In this document: piece by piece, positions 1-54,024 of the stretch
Position numbering within the stretch: the first letter of the stretch is position 1
Layout of the letters: every line of letters begins with the position of its first letter
Assembly (NCBI RefSeq): GCF_025200925.1
Contig: NZ_CP104174.1
Coordinates: 2,604,001 to 2,668,000 of the forward strand
Source: Bradyrhizobium sp. CB1015
GTDB lineage: Bacteria > Pseudomonadota > Alphaproteobacteria > Rhizobiales > Xanthobacteraceae
DNA length: 64,000 nucleotides
Direction of reading: 5' to 3'
The notes under the pieces: model-generated
What the model was told of the DNA's origin: nothing
Database searches by the model: none
What the model saw: only the letters and a program-made list of their open reading frames with translations
Program-made: the position numbers and the translations under genes

Positions 1-129
1 CTGACCATGTCCATGGGCATGATGATGATGCCGCCGACGATCCTCGCACTGCCGTTCAAGATGCTGTTCTTCGTGCTGATCGACGGCTGGAATCTGCTGG
101 CCTCCGGACTGGTGCGGTCGTTCTCGTAA
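1..129 (+). CDS. fliP: Flagellar export gate protein FliP, C-terminal end
   Basis: Only the last 42 codons are inside the window; the start lies upstream. The translated tail has a methionine-rich stretch, the motif [10 protein letters not shown], then a hydrophobic segment ending VDGW-like (here LIDGW) and LVRSFS. This matches the C-terminus of FliP, an integral membrane subunit of the flagellar type III export gate that works with FliQ, FliR and FlhA, all three of which lie downstream. A GC-rich hairpin directly after the stop suggests that this gene ends the preceding operon. Confidence 0.85.
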
Positions 130-153
130 GGGGCGGCGATCGCCTGCCGCCCC
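130..153 (+). terminator. GC-rich hairpin just after fliP
   Basis: GGGGCGGC (130-137) and GCCGCCCC (146-153) form a perfect 8-bp stem with an 8-nt loop, starting at the base after the fliP stop codon. No T-run follows, so this could be a terminator of relaxed type or an mRNA 3'-end protector. Confidence 0.5.
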
Positions 154-305
154 GTCATGGTTAGCGAGAAGTACCGCGTTATGGTTAGCGGTAGGTAATA
201 TTAACCATCTGATATTGCTGAGGAATTCAAGCCGACCTTAATCTGCGGGCAAGATTCGGCATGCTAGCAATGCATCACGGCGGGTTGGACCCCACCACAT
301 CAGTC
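154..305 (+). promoter_or_regulatory. Promoter/operator region of the first flagellin gene
   Basis: ATGGTTAGCG occurs twice in direct orientation (157-166 and 181-190, 24 bp apart). The second copy also forms an inverted repeat, ATGGTTA (181-187) with TAACCAT (202-208). An 8-bp palindrome TGCTAGCA lies at 262-269. Direct repeats of this kind suit an OmpR-type activator such as the LafR/FtcR protein encoded at the far end of the cluster, but no binding is proven. I see no clear sigma-54 or sigma-28 promoter by eye. Confidence 0.35.
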
Positions 306-388
306 CAAAGGCATGATGCCGCCCCTCCGTACCGGTGCAAGCCCGGTATGTCCCCTGATGAAAATGTAACGCGTACATAAAGGGACAT
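306..388 (+). promoter_or_regulatory. Flagellin 5' leader, copy 1, with hairpin and SD-complementary segment
   Basis: Bases 306-355 match 1495-1544 upstream of the second flagellin at 46 of 50 positions. Each copy holds a perfect 6-bp hairpin (TACCGG 330-335 with CCGGTA 343-348, 7-nt loop). It is followed by ATGTCCC (348-354), the exact complement of GGGACAT (382-388), which contains the Shine-Dalgarno of the gene. Pairing of the two would hide the ribosome site. In Caulobacter, FlbT acts on the fljK flagellin 5' UTR, and flbT is encoded in this cluster, so FlbT is the natural candidate partner here. That link is inference. Confidence 0.6.
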
Positions 389-393
389 TCGCA

Positions 394-1299
394 ATGTCAA
401 GCCTGCTTACGAACTCGACCGCCATGACCGCGCTGCAGACCCTGCGGTCTGTCGGTTCGCAACTCTCCACCACGCAGACCCGGATCTCCACCGGTCAGCG
501 CGTGGCCACCGCCTCGGACAACGCCGCCTATTGGTCGATCGCGACATCGATGCGCGCCGACAACGCCGCTCTCTCGGCAGTCTCCGACTCGCTCGGTCTG
601 TCGGCCGCGACCGTCGACACGCAATACACCGCTCTGACCACGGTCATCGGTGACAAGGACTCCGGCCTGACCAAGCTCCAGTCCCTGCTGGTCCAGGCCA
701 AGACCGCCGGTATCGACCGCACCAAGATCCAGGCCGATATCACCCAGATCCAGCAGCAGATGAAGAGCACCGCCAACGCGGCGACCTTCAACGGCATCAA
801 CTGGCTGAGCACGACCGCCACCACGCCGGCGACCTTCAGCCTGGTGTCGTCGTACTCGCGCGTCGCCGGCACGCCGACCATCGGCTCCATCACGGTGACG
901 ACCGCCAACTACTCGCTCTACACCGCGACCACGAGCGGCGTCCTGGACACGGTGAGCGGCGGCGCGTCGGTTGACAACATGACCATCGGCGCGCTGACCG
1001 ACTCGGCGGCCGACCAGACCACGCTCGACGGCTACATCGCGCAGGTCACCACCGCGATCAACACGGTGGCTTCGGCCGCCGCCAACCTCGGCGCGGTCAA
1101 GAACCGCATCGCGACCAACACGGAATTCGTGAAGTCGCTGATGGACTCGGTTGACCGCGGTGTCGGCCAGCTCGTCGATGCCGACATGAACCAGGAGTCC
1201 ACGCGCCTTGCGGCCCTCCAGGTCCAGCAGCAGCTCGGCGTTCAGGCGCTCTCGATCGCCAACAACAGCAGCCAGAGCATCCTGTCGCTGTTCCGCTAA
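394..1299 (+). CDS. lafA1: Flagellin (lateral type), copy 1
   Basis: A 301-residue flagellin, the filament subunit secreted through the flagellar export apparatus. The N-terminal D0/D1 helix region has the usual pattern (SLLTNSTAMTALQTL, then ISTGQRV and SDNAAYWSIA), and the C-terminal helix ends QALSIANNSSQSILSLFR. The protein is short, with a small central domain, as in rhizobial flagellins. The ATG at 394 follows the purine-rich site AAAGGGACAT. The second flagellin, just downstream, is closely similar. A leader shared by both genes precedes it and a strong hairpin terminator follows it, so each flagellin is probably its own transcription unit. The name lafA is used because the surrounding gene set resembles the lateral flagellar cluster of Bradyrhizobium. 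Confidence 0.93.
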   Translation: MSSLLTNSTAMTALQTLRSVGSQLSTTQTRISTGQRVATASDNAAYWSIATSMRADNAALSAVSDSLGLSAATVDTQYTALTTVIGDKDSGLTKLQSLLVQAKTAGIDRTKIQADITQIQQQMKSTANAATFNGINWLSTTATTPATFSLVSSYSRVAGTPTIGSITVTTANYSLYTATTSGVLDTVSGGASVDNMTIGALTDSAADQTTLDGYIAQVTTAINTVASAAANLGAVKNRIATNTEFVKSLMDSVDRGVGQLVDADMNQESTRLAALQVQQQLGVQALSIANNSSQSILSLFR

Positions 1300-1318
1300 G
1301 CTTCGAACCGTCCTTGCA

Positions 1319-1353
1319 GAGGGCCGCGCTTCTCGCGAAGCGCGGCTCTTTCG
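1319..1353 (+). terminator. Intrinsic terminator after flagellin 1
   Basis: GCCGCGCTTC (1323-1332) and GAAGCGCGGC (1337-1346) form a perfect 10-bp stem with a TCGC tetraloop, extended by weaker pairs. It is followed by CTCTTTCGTTT, a T-rich tail. Confidence 0.8.
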
Positions 1354-1494
1354 TTTCGGCGGACGCCCGTGCACGCCGATCATTTCGTCGCCCTGTTGCA
1401 GTAGGAGCACAGGGCCACAAGCCTCGCACAAGCTTCGCTCGCTAACCTCGCCGCTACGACAGGTTGGGCCTTAACCCCGCATTTTCCGGGCGCC

Positions 1495-1570
1495 CAAAGG
1501 CATGACGCCGCCCTGTCGTACCGGTGCAAGCCCGGTATGTCCCCAGCTCATCCAATCTTCAAAGGGACAT
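1495..1570 (+). promoter_or_regulatory. Flagellin 5' leader, copy 2, with hairpin and SD-complementary segment
   Basis: This is the second copy of the 50-bp leader block (1495-1544). The TACCGG/CCGGTA hairpin is at 1519-1524 and 1532-1537. ATGTCCC at 1537-1543 is complementary to GGGACAT at 1564-1570, just before the ATG at 1575. The spacer between the two complementary pieces is 20 nt here and 27 nt in copy 1, and the sequence between them differs, while both pairing segments are unchanged. This argues for selection on the pairing. The promoter of lafA2 must lie between the terminator at 1353 and this block, but none is clear by eye. Confidence 0.6.
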
Positions 1571-1574
1571 CAAA

Positions 1575-2486
1575 ATGGGTTCAAGTCTCCTCACCAACTC
1601 CTCCGCCATGACCGCGCTCCAGACCCTTCGGTCTGTCAGCTCGCAACTCGCCACCACGCAGAACCGGATCTCGACCGGCCAGCGCGTCTCGACCGCGTCG
1701 GACAACGCCGCCTACTGGTCGATCGCGACCTCGATGCGCTCGGACAACGCTGCGCTCTCGGCGGTCTCCGACTCGCTCGGTCTGTCGGCCGCGACCGTTG
1801 ACACCGAATACACCGCCCTGACCTCGGTCATCGGCGACAAGGAATCCGGCCTGACCAAGCTGCAGGCGCTGCTGGTCGAAGCCAAGACCGCCGGTATCGA
1901 CCGCACCAAGATCCAGGCCGACATCACCCAGATCCAGCAGGACATGAAACTGAAGGCCAATTCGGCGACCTTCAACGGCATCAACTGGCTGAGCACGACC
2001 GCCACCACGCCGGCGACCTTCAACCTGGTGTCGTCGTACTCGCGCGTCGGCGGCACGCCGACCATCGGCTCCATCACGGTGACGACCGCCAACTACTCGC
2101 TCTACACCGCGACCGCGAGCGGCATCCTGGACACGGTGAGCGGCGGCGCGTCGGTTGACAACATGAACATCAGCGCGCTGACCGACTCGGCCGCTGACCA
2201 GACCACGCTCGATGGCTACATCGCTCAGGTCACCGCTGCGATCAACTCGGTGGCCTCGGCCGCTGCCGATCTCGGTGCGGTCAAGAACCGCATCTCGACC
2301 AACACGGAATTCGTCAAGACCCTGATGGACTCCGTGGATCGCGGTGTCGGCCAGCTCGTCGACGCCGACATGAACGCGGAATCGACCCGCCTCCAGGCGC
2401 TGCAGACCCAGCAGCAGCTCGGCGTTCAGGCGCTCTCGATCGCCAACCAGAACAGCCAGAGCATCCTGTCGCTGTTCCGCGGCTAA
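1575..2486 (+). CDS. lafA2: Flagellin (lateral type), copy 2
   Basis: A 303-residue flagellin with the same domain plan as copy 1: N-terminal D0/D1 helices, a small central region, and a C-terminal helix ending QSILSLFRG. An in-frame start exists at 1524, inside the shared leader. The ATG at 1575 is chosen because it sits 4 nt after GGGACAT and aligns with the start of copy 1 (MGSSLLTNS against MSSLLTNS). The central part of the gene (about 1965-2191) is nearly identical at DNA level to copy 1, while the ends are more diverged, which suggests gene conversion. Confidence 0.93.
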   Translation: MGSSLLTNSSAMTALQTLRSVSSQLATTQNRISTGQRVSTASDNAAYWSIATSMRSDNAALSAVSDSLGLSAATVDTEYTALTSVIGDKESGLTKLQALLVEAKTAGIDRTKIQADITQIQQDMKLKANSATFNGINWLSTTATTPATFNLVSSYSRVGGTPTIGSITVTTANYSLYTATASGILDTVSGGASVDNMNISALTDSAADQTTLDGYIAQVTAAINSVASAAADLGAVKNRISTNTEFVKTLMDSVDRGVGQLVDADMNAESTRLQALQTQQQLGVQALSIANQNSQSILSLFRG

Positions 2487-2503
2487 GCGGCGCTCTCGAA
2501 AAC

Positions 2504-2530
2504 GACCGTGCTCCCTCAGGGAGCACGGTC
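2504..2530 (+). terminator. Strong hairpin terminator after flagellin 2
   Basis: GACCGTGCTCCC (2504-2515) and GGGAGCACGGTC (2519-2530) form a perfect 12-bp stem with a 3-nt loop, 17 nt after the stop codon. There is no T-tract. Confidence 0.7.
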
Positions 2531-2787
2531 CCCGCCGTCATGGTGGGCGCGCCGACACGCGATGTGGCGGCAATCGACCTCCCGACGTCAGACTTCTTGC
2601 GACACGCCGCAGCCGGTCGGGCTGCCGTGCGCCCGAGCGCTCGCTCGCGGCTGCCAAACCGATTGCGTCGCCCAGCCTTGTAAAATTGCAACGCCTCGCC
2701 AGCGCACCCGCACATTCGCGCTTCGCGCAACCTTCAGACAAGGTTGGCAGCTGAGTGTCCTCACCATTCGCATTGGTACGAGGTCAT
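2531..2787 (+). promoter_or_regulatory. Intergenic region upstream of the fliF operon
   Basis: About 257 bp between the flagellin terminator and fliF. It contains a perfect 7-bp inverted repeat CAACCTT (2728-2734) / AAGGTTG (2740-2746) with a 5-nt loop, close to the fliF start. It is likely to carry the promoter of the long downstream operon, but no confident -35/-10 or sigma-54 match is visible. Confidence 0.3.
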
Positions 2788-13337: not shown

Positions 13338-13392
13338 ATAGGGGCTCGTAACCTTTGTCCAGTTGTTCGGTCTCCTGCGAAGAGTGGTCCTG

Positions 13393-13737
13393 ATGACGTT
13401 TGAAGCCTATGAAGCGGTCGTTGACGAAAGTGGCTATGAGGCGCGCAGTCGGGAGCGGCAGGCGCTCAGCCTCGGCATCGACCGGCTCGAGCGGATCCAG
13501 AAGGGGCGCTTCAGCCTCGAGGATCAGGTCGAGAGCCTGCTCTATGTGCGGCGGCTGTGGACGATCTTCATCGAGGATCTCGCGCACCCCGAGAACGGGC
13601 TGCCGGACAAGCTGCGCGCCGACATCATCTCGATCGGGCTGTGGGTGGTCAAGGAAGCCGACCGTCTCCGCGAGCAGCGGTCGAGCGACGTGGTGCAGCT
13701 GATCGAAATCAACCGCCTGATCCGAGACGCGCTTTAA
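13393..13737 (+). CDS. flaF: Flagellin synthesis regulator FlaF
   Basis: A 114-residue protein matching the usual FlaF length, with the family pattern YEAVVDESGYEARSRERQAL and LWTIFIEDLAHPENGLP. In Caulobacter, FlaF is needed for flagellin synthesis and works against FlbT. I chose ATG 13393; an in-frame TTG at 13363 is less likely because the ATG gives the normal FlaF N-terminus (MTFEAYEA). Its stop overlaps the flbT start (TAATG). Confidence 0.9.
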   Translation: MTFEAYEAVVDESGYEARSRERQALSLGIDRLERIQKGRFSLEDQVESLLYVRRLWTIFIEDLAHPENGLPDKLRADIISIGLWVVKEADRLREQRSSDVVQLIEINRLIRDAL

Positions 13738-14147
13738 TGAAGATCTCCTTGCGCGCGGGCGAACGGATCTACATCAACGGCGCGGTGCTCCGCGTCGACC
13801 GCAAGGTCTCCGTCGAGCTCGTCAACGACGTGATGTTCCTGCTCGAGGGGCAGGTCATGCAGGCGTCCGACGCCACCACGGCGCTGCGACAGCTCTATTT
13901 CATCGTCCAGCTCATGCTGATGAACCCGACCGACGTCCGCGACGCCGCCGCGCTCTACGCGCAGCATCACGAGGCCCTGTGTGTCGTTTGCGAGAGCCGC
14001 GAGATGCTCGATGGGCTCGGCGCGATCCACGAGCTGGTCGGGGCGACCCGCTATTTCGAGGCGCTCAAGCGGATTCGGGCGCTGTTTCCGGTGGAGCAGG
14101 CCATCCTGGCCGGCGCCGCCGATGTTTCCCCAGTCGAAGCTGCCTGA
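13737..14147 (+). CDS. flbT: Flagellin mRNA regulator FlbT
   Basis: A 136-residue protein, complete FlbT length, with the motif MKISLRAGERIYINGAVLR and LLEGQVMQASDATTALRQLY. FlbT is a post-transcriptional regulator. In Caulobacter it acts on the 5' UTR of flagellin mRNA and links flagellin translation to hook completion. The two flagellin genes of this cluster have a conserved leader with a segment complementary to the ribosome site, which makes them the obvious targets. The start ATG overlaps the flaF stop codon by one base. Confidence 0.92.
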   Translation: MKISLRAGERIYINGAVLRVDRKVSVELVNDVMFLLEGQVMQASDATTALRQLYFIVQLMLMNPTDVRDAAALYAQHHEALCVVCESREMLDGLGAIHELVGATRYFEALKRIRALFPVEQAILAGAADVSPVEAA

Positions 14148-53447: not shown

Positions 53448-53562
53448 GGTGTGCCGGATGCCAACCGGGTCCGGCACGGGCGCCGGGCAGGTCGTTTCGG
53501 ACCCGTCTGAATCCCCGCCTTGCGCTCCTTCGTATCCATCTTGCTCTTTGGAGGACTTGGTT
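53448..53562 (+). ncRNA. ROSE-type RNA thermometer in the hsp20 5' leader
   Basis: The last part of the leader has the ROSE signature: TTGCT (53541-53545) can pair with the Shine-Dalgarno AGGA (53552-53555) across the 6-nt loop CTTTGG, leaving the conserved G bulged. Upstream lie a perfect 8-bp hairpin (GTGCCGGA 53451-53458 / TCCGGCAC 53470-53477) and further GC-rich complementary segments. In Bradyrhizobium, ROSE elements block translation of small heat-shock genes at normal temperature and melt on heating. The element's position directly before an Hsp20 gene fits. Confidence 0.8.
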
Positions 53563-54024
53563 ATGAGGACCAGTTTTGACTTCGCGCCCCTGTGGCGCTC
53601 CACCATCGGCTTCGACCACCTGGCCGACCTCGTCGACAGCACGCTGCGCCAGGCGACCGAGGACAATTATCCCCCCTACAATATCGAGCGCTCCGGCGAA
53701 GATCACTATCGGATCAGCCTTGCCGTAGCGGGGTTCGGCGTTAACGACATCACCGTGACGGCCGAGCAGAACGCGCTCACCATCGAGGGCAGGAAGCCCG
53801 AGACCGCCGCGCGCGAATATTTGTACCAGGGCATCGCCGCGCGTCCGTTCCGGCGCGTGTTCAACCTCGCCGACTATGTCCAGGTGAAGCAGGCCTCGTT
53901 CCAGGACGGGCTCCTGATCATCGACCTCGTCCGCGAGGTTCCGGAAGCCATGAAGCCGCGCCGCATTCAGATCGCGGGCGGCGCTCCTGCGGCATCGCAG
54001 ATCGAGCAGAAGAAGGCAGCCTGA
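53563..54024 (+). CDS. Small heat-shock protein (Hsp20, IbpA-like class A)
   Basis: A 153-residue ATP-independent holdase that binds unfolding proteins. It has the rhizobial class A pattern: RTSFDFAPLWRSTIGFDHLA, then PPYNIERSGEDHYRISLAVAGF (read in parts), with an alpha-crystallin domain over residues 35-125 ending DGLLIIDLVREVPEAMKPR and the conserved IxI-type end RRIQIA. ATG 53563 follows GGAGGA, the site masked by the ROSE element. It is the first gene of a stress operon. Confidence 0.93.
   Translation: MRTSFDFAPLWRSTIGFDHLADLVDSTLRQATEDNYPPYNIERSGEDHYRISLAVAGFGVNDITVTAEQNALTIEGRKPETAAREYLYQGIAARPFRRVFNLADYVQVKQASFQDGLLIIDLVREVPEAMKPRRIQIAGGAPAASQIEQKKAA

Follow-up and report, generated by a model that had tools for sequence, protein, structure and literature searches.

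Two flagellin genes lie near the start of the 64,000-nucleotide stretch analysed here (the window), and the leader of each carries an exact complement of its own ribosome binding site. The question is whether these leaders govern flagellin translation, and through what. The first-pass annotation had described two matching 50-bp blocks, each with a hairpin and a segment complementary to the Shine-Dalgarno (SD) sequence, and had proposed a two-state switch that might be the target of FlbT or a self-contained gate. The blocks at 306-355 and 1495-1544 were indeed identical at 46 of 50 positions, the TACCGG/CCGGTA hairpin was present in both, and ATGTCCC was followed by GGGACAT after 27 nt in copy 1 and 20 nt in copy 2. 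These observations are confirmed, but they understate the case: the ATGTCCC/GGGACAT pairing makes up just one helix (P5) within a larger leader RNA. Each of the two flagellin mRNAs seems to start with this folded RNA of about 110 nt and to have its ribosome binding site masked by it.

The conserved structure spans 277-388 in copy 1 and 1456-1570 in copy 2, and begins about 30 nt upstream of the annotated stretch (306..1570), which was too narrow. The helices follow one another from 5′ to 3′ as P1, P2, P3 (GGC-AUGAN-GCC), P4 and P5 over the SD; P2 and P3 form a three-way junction closed by P1, and P4 and P5 come next with almost no linker (Table 1). P1 and P2, where covariation is strongest, and P3, the most conserved hairpin, had been missed. 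Between the two window copies P2 already contains a compensated pair, TTGGAC/GTCCAA in copy 1 (A-U) against TTGGGC/GCCCAA in copy 2 (G-C). The proposed two-state switch, in which the hairpin and the SD helix would compete for one shared base, is not supported. The P4 stem is ACCGG/CCGGU, while the flanking U ends P1 and the flanking A starts P5, so P4 and P5 can form together; the two helices are compatible and are conserved together.

Table 1. Features of the two flagellin leaders and of their cluster in the window.
Feature	Position	Strand	Evidence or remark
Promoter-like stretch CAAGATTCG...GCTAGC, upstream of copy 1	248..268	+	putative; weak conservation
Copy 1 P1	277-284 with 323-330	+	structure and covariation; one C-U mismatch; mean pair probability 0.07
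Copy 1 P2	285-290 with 303-308	+	structure and covariation
Copy 1 P1-P3 three-way junction	277..330	+	alignment structure and covariation
Copy 1 P3 hairpin GGC-AUGAU-GCC	310-320	+	predicted weak; mean pair probability 0.25
Copy 1 P4 hairpin ACCGG-UGCAAGC-CCGGU	331..347	+	pair probability 0.94
Copy 1 P5 AUGUCCC/GGGACAU over SD	348-354 with 382-388	+	pair probability 0.65
Flagellin gene 1, lateral type, 301 aa	394..1299	+	Pfam Flagellin_N and Flagellin_C
Promoter-like stretch CACAAGCTTCG...GCTAAC, upstream of copy 2	1426..1446	+	putative
Copy 2 P1	1456-1463 with 1512-1519	+	pair probability 0.93
Copy 2 P2	1464-1469 with 1492-1497	+	pair probability 0.90
Copy 2 P3	1499-1509	+	pair probability 0.90
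Copy 2 P4 hairpin	1520..1536	+	predicted weak in the ensemble, 0.10
Copy 2 P5 AUGUCCC/GGGACAU	1537-1543 with 1564-1570	+	mean pair probability 0.98
Flagellin gene 2, ATG at 1575	1575..2486	+	second match to flagellin in the own genome (90% identity with flagellin 1)
FlaF of the cluster	13363..13737	+	PF07309, E 3.5e-31
FlbT of the cluster (L-type)	13737..14147	+	PF07378, E 2e-39 (for the longer ORF, 13557-14147); member of the FlbT clade that accompanies the element

The pattern ATGTCCC-N(5-30)-GGGACAT occurred twice in the window, and 100 shuffled windows contained none. On its own this evidence is less strong than it seems, because 7-mer complements are not unusual (for 0.66% of the 7-mers in the window an exact reverse complement follows at a similar distance), the two copies are duplicates, and the fold z-scores against shuffles are modest (-0.75 for 306-420, -0.88 for 1495-1600, -1.35 for 326-398 and -1.06 for 1516-1580). 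The window sequence alone being weak evidence, the matter was therefore settled by comparison with relatives.

Within the genus, 146 genomes taken from a larger group were searched with the protein; 138 gave matches at E 0.001, of which many were distant ones, probably other flagellins. Near matches only were kept, and 70 loci (30 from the protein search and 40 by place) yielded 137 flagellin starts with 125 distinct leaders. The AAAGGCATGA-type core was conserved in all 137 of these lateral-flagellin leaders, ATGTCCC was kept in 137/137, and so was the partner strand GGG[AG]C[AG]T (GGGACAT in 126, GGGACGT in 8 and GGGGCGT in 3), every version of which pairs with AUGUCCC if G-U is allowed. Conservation of the helix, which the first-pass annotation had proposed to check in other genomes of the genus, was complete in the leaders collected. 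In third or later flagellin copies (L033, L034, L035, L036, L037, L040, L042 and L056) P5 is weaker, GGGACGT or GGGGCGT introducing one or two G-U pairs; this perhaps gives graded leakiness among paralogues. When 45 of the 137 leaders, chosen by shared words, were aligned with MAFFT, RNAalifold returned 27 pairs in five helices, with P1 and P2 starting upstream of the annotated block. For the 29-pair structure on these 45 leaders, 97.6% of cells pair, and 27 two-sided changes were counted against 7.3 in shuffles.

The element extends well beyond the genus. Covariance model R1, run over 198 genomes of the family at E 0.1, matched 36 of them in 13 of 47 genera, 31 at E 6e-14 or better and five weakly (E 0.001 or worse); in the own genome the two known copies alone were convincing (E 4e-44 and 9e-38), the next match standing at 0.066. 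A second model, R2, was run over 397 genomes of the order and matched 127 of them, from 49 of the 141 genera. Strong matches, at E 2e-6 or better, were found in 113 genomes, and the other 14, at E 0.0028 or worse, were not counted on. Over 385 genomes of the class, R2 and R3 gave no match above 27 bits outside the order, and 27 loci fetched from the 41 places listed there had no recognisable flagellin nearby. The leader RNA is apparently restricted to one order.

Placement was examined on a part of the R2 matches, 110 aligned copies from 81 loci, and 107 of them directly precede a reading frame matching flagellin. The three exceptions are L174, L179 (a truncated match) and L132 (an unrelated gene, outside the order). 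At L174 (1109-1246, minus strand) the gene that follows the copy resembles flagellin, by eye, in no more than a short stretch (SAAYWSI).

The leader RNA structure is well supported by covariation. The main set comprised 88 model-aligned leaders (matches at E 1e-10, from 69 loci), in which 94.8% of cells pair and 23 of 29 pairs show two-sided changes; 324 cells carry such changes, against 85 in shuffled alignments and 30-61 with the partners slid. As an alignment made with the model leans toward the model, the analysis was repeated on 40 order-wide leaders aligned by sequence only. There RNAalifold recovered P1, P2, P3 and P5 but not P4, with two-sided changes in 15 of 21 pairs. By average-product-corrected scoring of the same alignment, 10 of the top 20 among 6,933 column pairs are pairs of the structure (0.06 expected), and the fifth-ranked is the outer pair of P4, absent from that RNAalifold structure. 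Covariation is strong for P1 and P2. At paired positions G-U exceeds A-C, 104 to 46 in the 88 leaders and 36 to 23 among those aligned by sequence only; this asymmetry speaks for an RNA of the leader strand rather than a DNA palindrome. Across the 88 leaders P3 is the most conserved hairpin, with GCAUGA in 83, and P4 has a constant stem and a variable loop. P2, judged by eye, is a simple hairpin within the genus, but in several relatives outside it (among L083-L098) the region grows into a larger domain with what look like two extra hairpins.

The covariation of P5 itself says little because the helix is nearly invariant (UGUCCC in 73 of 88 leaders); of the six P5 pairs scored in the sequence-only alignment, one ranked 18th and five 410th or lower. 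The own strands of 15 variant P5s pair at a mean of -7.25 kcal/mol, compared with -6.26 when strands were dealt among them, and 17 of 2,000 permutations were as good. Only 7 of the 15 exceed the average of their pairings with every other leader, and for 9 the consensus strand would be a better partner than their own. The SD side and the opposite strand have changed jointly in L181, L195 and L208; compensatory change in the helix does occur, in few leaders. The first-pass claim that ATGTCCC can pair with the SD, and that this pairing is kept while the intervening sequence changes, is borne out across the order. A conserved helix over the SD, as defines an SD-sequestering leader, is present.

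Folding of single sequences predicts occlusion of the SD by P5. The SD strand was unpaired with a mean predicted probability of 0.115 over the 88 leaders, against 0.313 with the upstream leader shuffled, and in 78 of them it was less open than the mean of its own shuffles. The two window copies differ: in copy 2 the SD was predicted unpaired at 0.4% against 22.5% in shuffles, and in copy 1 at 15.0% against 14.6%, with no extra hiding. The stability z-score relative to upstream-shuffled leaders averaged -1.72 (below -2 in 33 of 88), and mean helix probabilities over the 88 leaders were 0.48 for P1, 0.55 for P2, 0.55 for P3, 0.57 for P4 and 0.68 for P5, a partial support for every helix.

Upstream of P1, positions near -37/-36, -26/-25 and -13/-12, counted from the first base of P1, were weakly conserved in the 88 leaders (at most 0.74 bits). 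This promoter-like motif keeps a constant spacing to P1 and in many relatives includes a near-repeat AAGCTTCGCGCAAGCTT and GCTA; the transcript may therefore start at the foot of P1. The motif is a possible site of a regulator such as LafR; no match to the sigma-70 consensus was found in window positions 1-2600.

FlbT was named in the first-pass annotation as a member of the same cluster, correctly: the FlaF and FlbT genes lie side by side about 13 kb downstream of the leaders. FlbT was present in 111 of the 113 strongly matching genomes by hand tally, the exceptions being G446 (86% complete) and G584. In the four families with both states, also tallied by hand, the element was found in 34/34 genomes with at least two FlbT genes and in 0/38 with one (f44, 11/11 vs 0/6; f11, 11/11 vs 0/8; f41, 10/10 vs 0/9; f35, 2/2 vs 0/15); in the own genus the counts were 6/8 vs 0/7. 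Other families have the element accompanied by a single FlbT. Over the whole draw of the order, 44 of 52 genomes with at least two FlbT genes had a strong match (G110, G696, G169, G450, G420, G486, G630 and G693 had none), and 176 genomes with FlbT have no strong match to the element.

The FlbT proteins themselves were then compared. Those from 19 element-bearing genomes (16 single-FlbT genomes, the window and two of four further neighbourhoods) formed one clade with support of 100/100, and of 100/98 after 20 FlbTs from other orders had been added, one with an inner stop being left out. Twenty other FlbTs fell outside it, 15 from element-less genomes and five that are second copies from element genomes. 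Near the element, no FlbT was found in two of the four 20-kb neighbourhoods searched. S-type systems have FlbT and lack the element. This comparison shows that the element travels with one FlbT clade and belongs to one flagellar system. The link to FlbT is confounded, since the whole flagellar system is inherited together, and FlbT is not singled out within it.

The own genome also has a second, S-type FlbT at C1:6187842, about 21 kb from a flg-Rhizobiales RNA (RF01736) that scored above cut-off at C1:6167076-6167220 (L151); the S-type flagellar system may have an RNA element of its own. The Pfam Sm_like domain is weakly matched by 11 of the 19 S-type FlbT proteins (A8; best E 3.4e-4), which hints at RNA binding.

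The connection between FlbT and a flagellin mRNA leader dates from 2000 (Anderson and Gober, as cited in PMC4347634). According to a review (PMC8429497, citing Mongiardini 2017), FlbT translationally induces LafA1 and LafA2 in B. diazoefficiens; another source describes it as a translational activator in Brucella and a repressor in Caulobacter (PMC9812332). A passage of a 2015 review (PMC4347634) lists its mechanism as unresolved.

In the reading that we prefer, and consider fairly probable, P5 closes a translational gate, which the FlbT belonging to that flagellar system would open by direct or indirect action. A structured leader (the P1-P2-P3 junction, P4 and P5) would stand at the start of each flagellin mRNA, and by default P5, pairing AUGUCCC with the SD GGGACAU, would keep the ribosome off. 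The P3 hairpin (GC-AUGAN-GC) and the junction would serve as receptor for some factor from this system, most probably the cluster's L-type FlbT with or without FlaF or flagellin, whose action would open P5 or prevent its formation; flagellin would then be translated only while that system is being built. How FlbT might act on the leader, by direct binding, through what opening step and with what role for FlaF or flagellin, we infer. A stronger version can be offered tentatively, as something that falls a little short of probable: a distinct FlbT clade would target the leader RNA directly, FlbT-L would read the conserved AUGA hairpin and the junction and open the SD helix, and FlbT would be an activator in this order because its flagellin mRNAs acquired a self-closing gate. 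The difference in sign from the Caulobacter repressor would follow if only this order has such a self-closing leader.

The same gate might answer to another effector, FlaF, unsecreted flagellin or a small RNA, with FlbT acting indirectly. The element and L-type FlbT co-occur only as part of a flagellar system, and in Caulobacter translational regulation by FlbT is described as needing a flagellin, FljJ (PMC7591256); yet among the members of the system it is FlbT for which an effect on flagellin translation has been reported in B. diazoefficiens (PMC8429497), and we regard a different effector as unlikely.

A metabolite or ion riboswitch, with the junction and P4 binding a small molecule that sets P5, seems to us quite improbable. 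The compact multi-helix architecture upstream of an SD-masking helix, the T-loop-like P4 loop in 38 of 88 leaders and the detection of LafA1 and LafA2 only in arabinose-grown cells, as stated in PMC5996035, would suit such a switch. However, nearly all placed copies (107/110) precede flagellin, without any pathway genes seen downstream; P2 and the loop of P4 are free to vary, and no Rfam riboswitch matched.

We give a similarly small chance to a leader that mainly sets mRNA stability or processing, through protection of the 5′ end or an RNase E or RNase III site, with SD masking secondary. The order-wide conservation of the strand opposing the SD and the joint changes in L181, L195 and L208 would go unexplained, although the promoter-like motif would place the 5′ end just before P1, a usual spot for a protecting stem, and Caulobacter FlbT is said to promote mRNA degradation (PMC4347634).

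That the leader is instead a DNA element bound by a transcription factor such as LafR is very unlikely: P1, P2 and P3 are inverted repeats near a promoter-like motif, but that motif is separate and lies upstream, and the excess of G-U over A-C, the variable loop lengths and a helix ending at the SD all point to RNA. A self-cleaving ribozyme like twister-sister (RF02681) is scarcely credible, for although the copy 1 P4 hairpin matches the SL4 hairpin (17 nt, E 0.64) and shares its loop type, the match covers only positions 31-47 of the 81 of the model, the SL4-type loop occurs in just 38 of 88 leaders, and no counterpart was seen in the leader of the conserved catalytic L1 loop and C-A cleavage step (features as given in PMC5660989).

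Among the 4227 models of Rfam 15 no family fits the leaders. At copy 1, with E up to 10, there were only three weak matches (a miRNA, an lncRNA and the 17 nt of twister-sister), and none at the elements of 14 diverse loci with E up to 0.5. The flg-Rhizobiales family (RF01736) in particular gave no match at copy 1 (E up to 10), at either copy (E up to 1) or at the 14 loci (E up to 0.5). No description of the leader RNA was found in the open-licence literature, within the titles, beginnings of abstracts and selected passages covered. It is of a known kind, an SD-sequestering leader, and to our knowledge a new RNA family with its own architecture, so it adds a family that Rfam 15 lacks.

ROSE-type thermometers (RF00435) are leader RNAs that likewise mask the SD. 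The sole ROSE match of the window lies at 53454-53569 on the plus strand (56.2 bits, E 1e-5, above the gathering score), and not at the flagellin leaders. The flg-Rhizobiales RNA resembles our element in being a candidate structured RNA of Rhizobiales linked by name to flagella (PMC2864571), whereas its match in the own genome lies near the S-type FlbT and not at flagellin leaders. The FlbT-responsive flagellin 5′ UTR of Caulobacter (Anderson and Gober 2000) is alike in that FlbT controls the flagellin leader post-transcriptionally; there, however, FlbT represses, and the element was not found outside the order, Caulobacter not being identified among the scanned genomes. For the question of how FlbT works, the leader RNA supplies a specified target and exact mutations to try, and it may account for the difference in sign. 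In its proposed working it comes close to the CsrA-FliW system (PMC4894983), in which flagellin translation is set at the leader by a protein tied to assembly. The two differ in that here a conserved RNA helix closes the SD, and no CsrA match was seen for FlbT in Pfam. If FlbT does act on the leader directly, its mechanism would parallel CsrA-FliW control in an alphaproteobacterial setting, but with the opposite sign.
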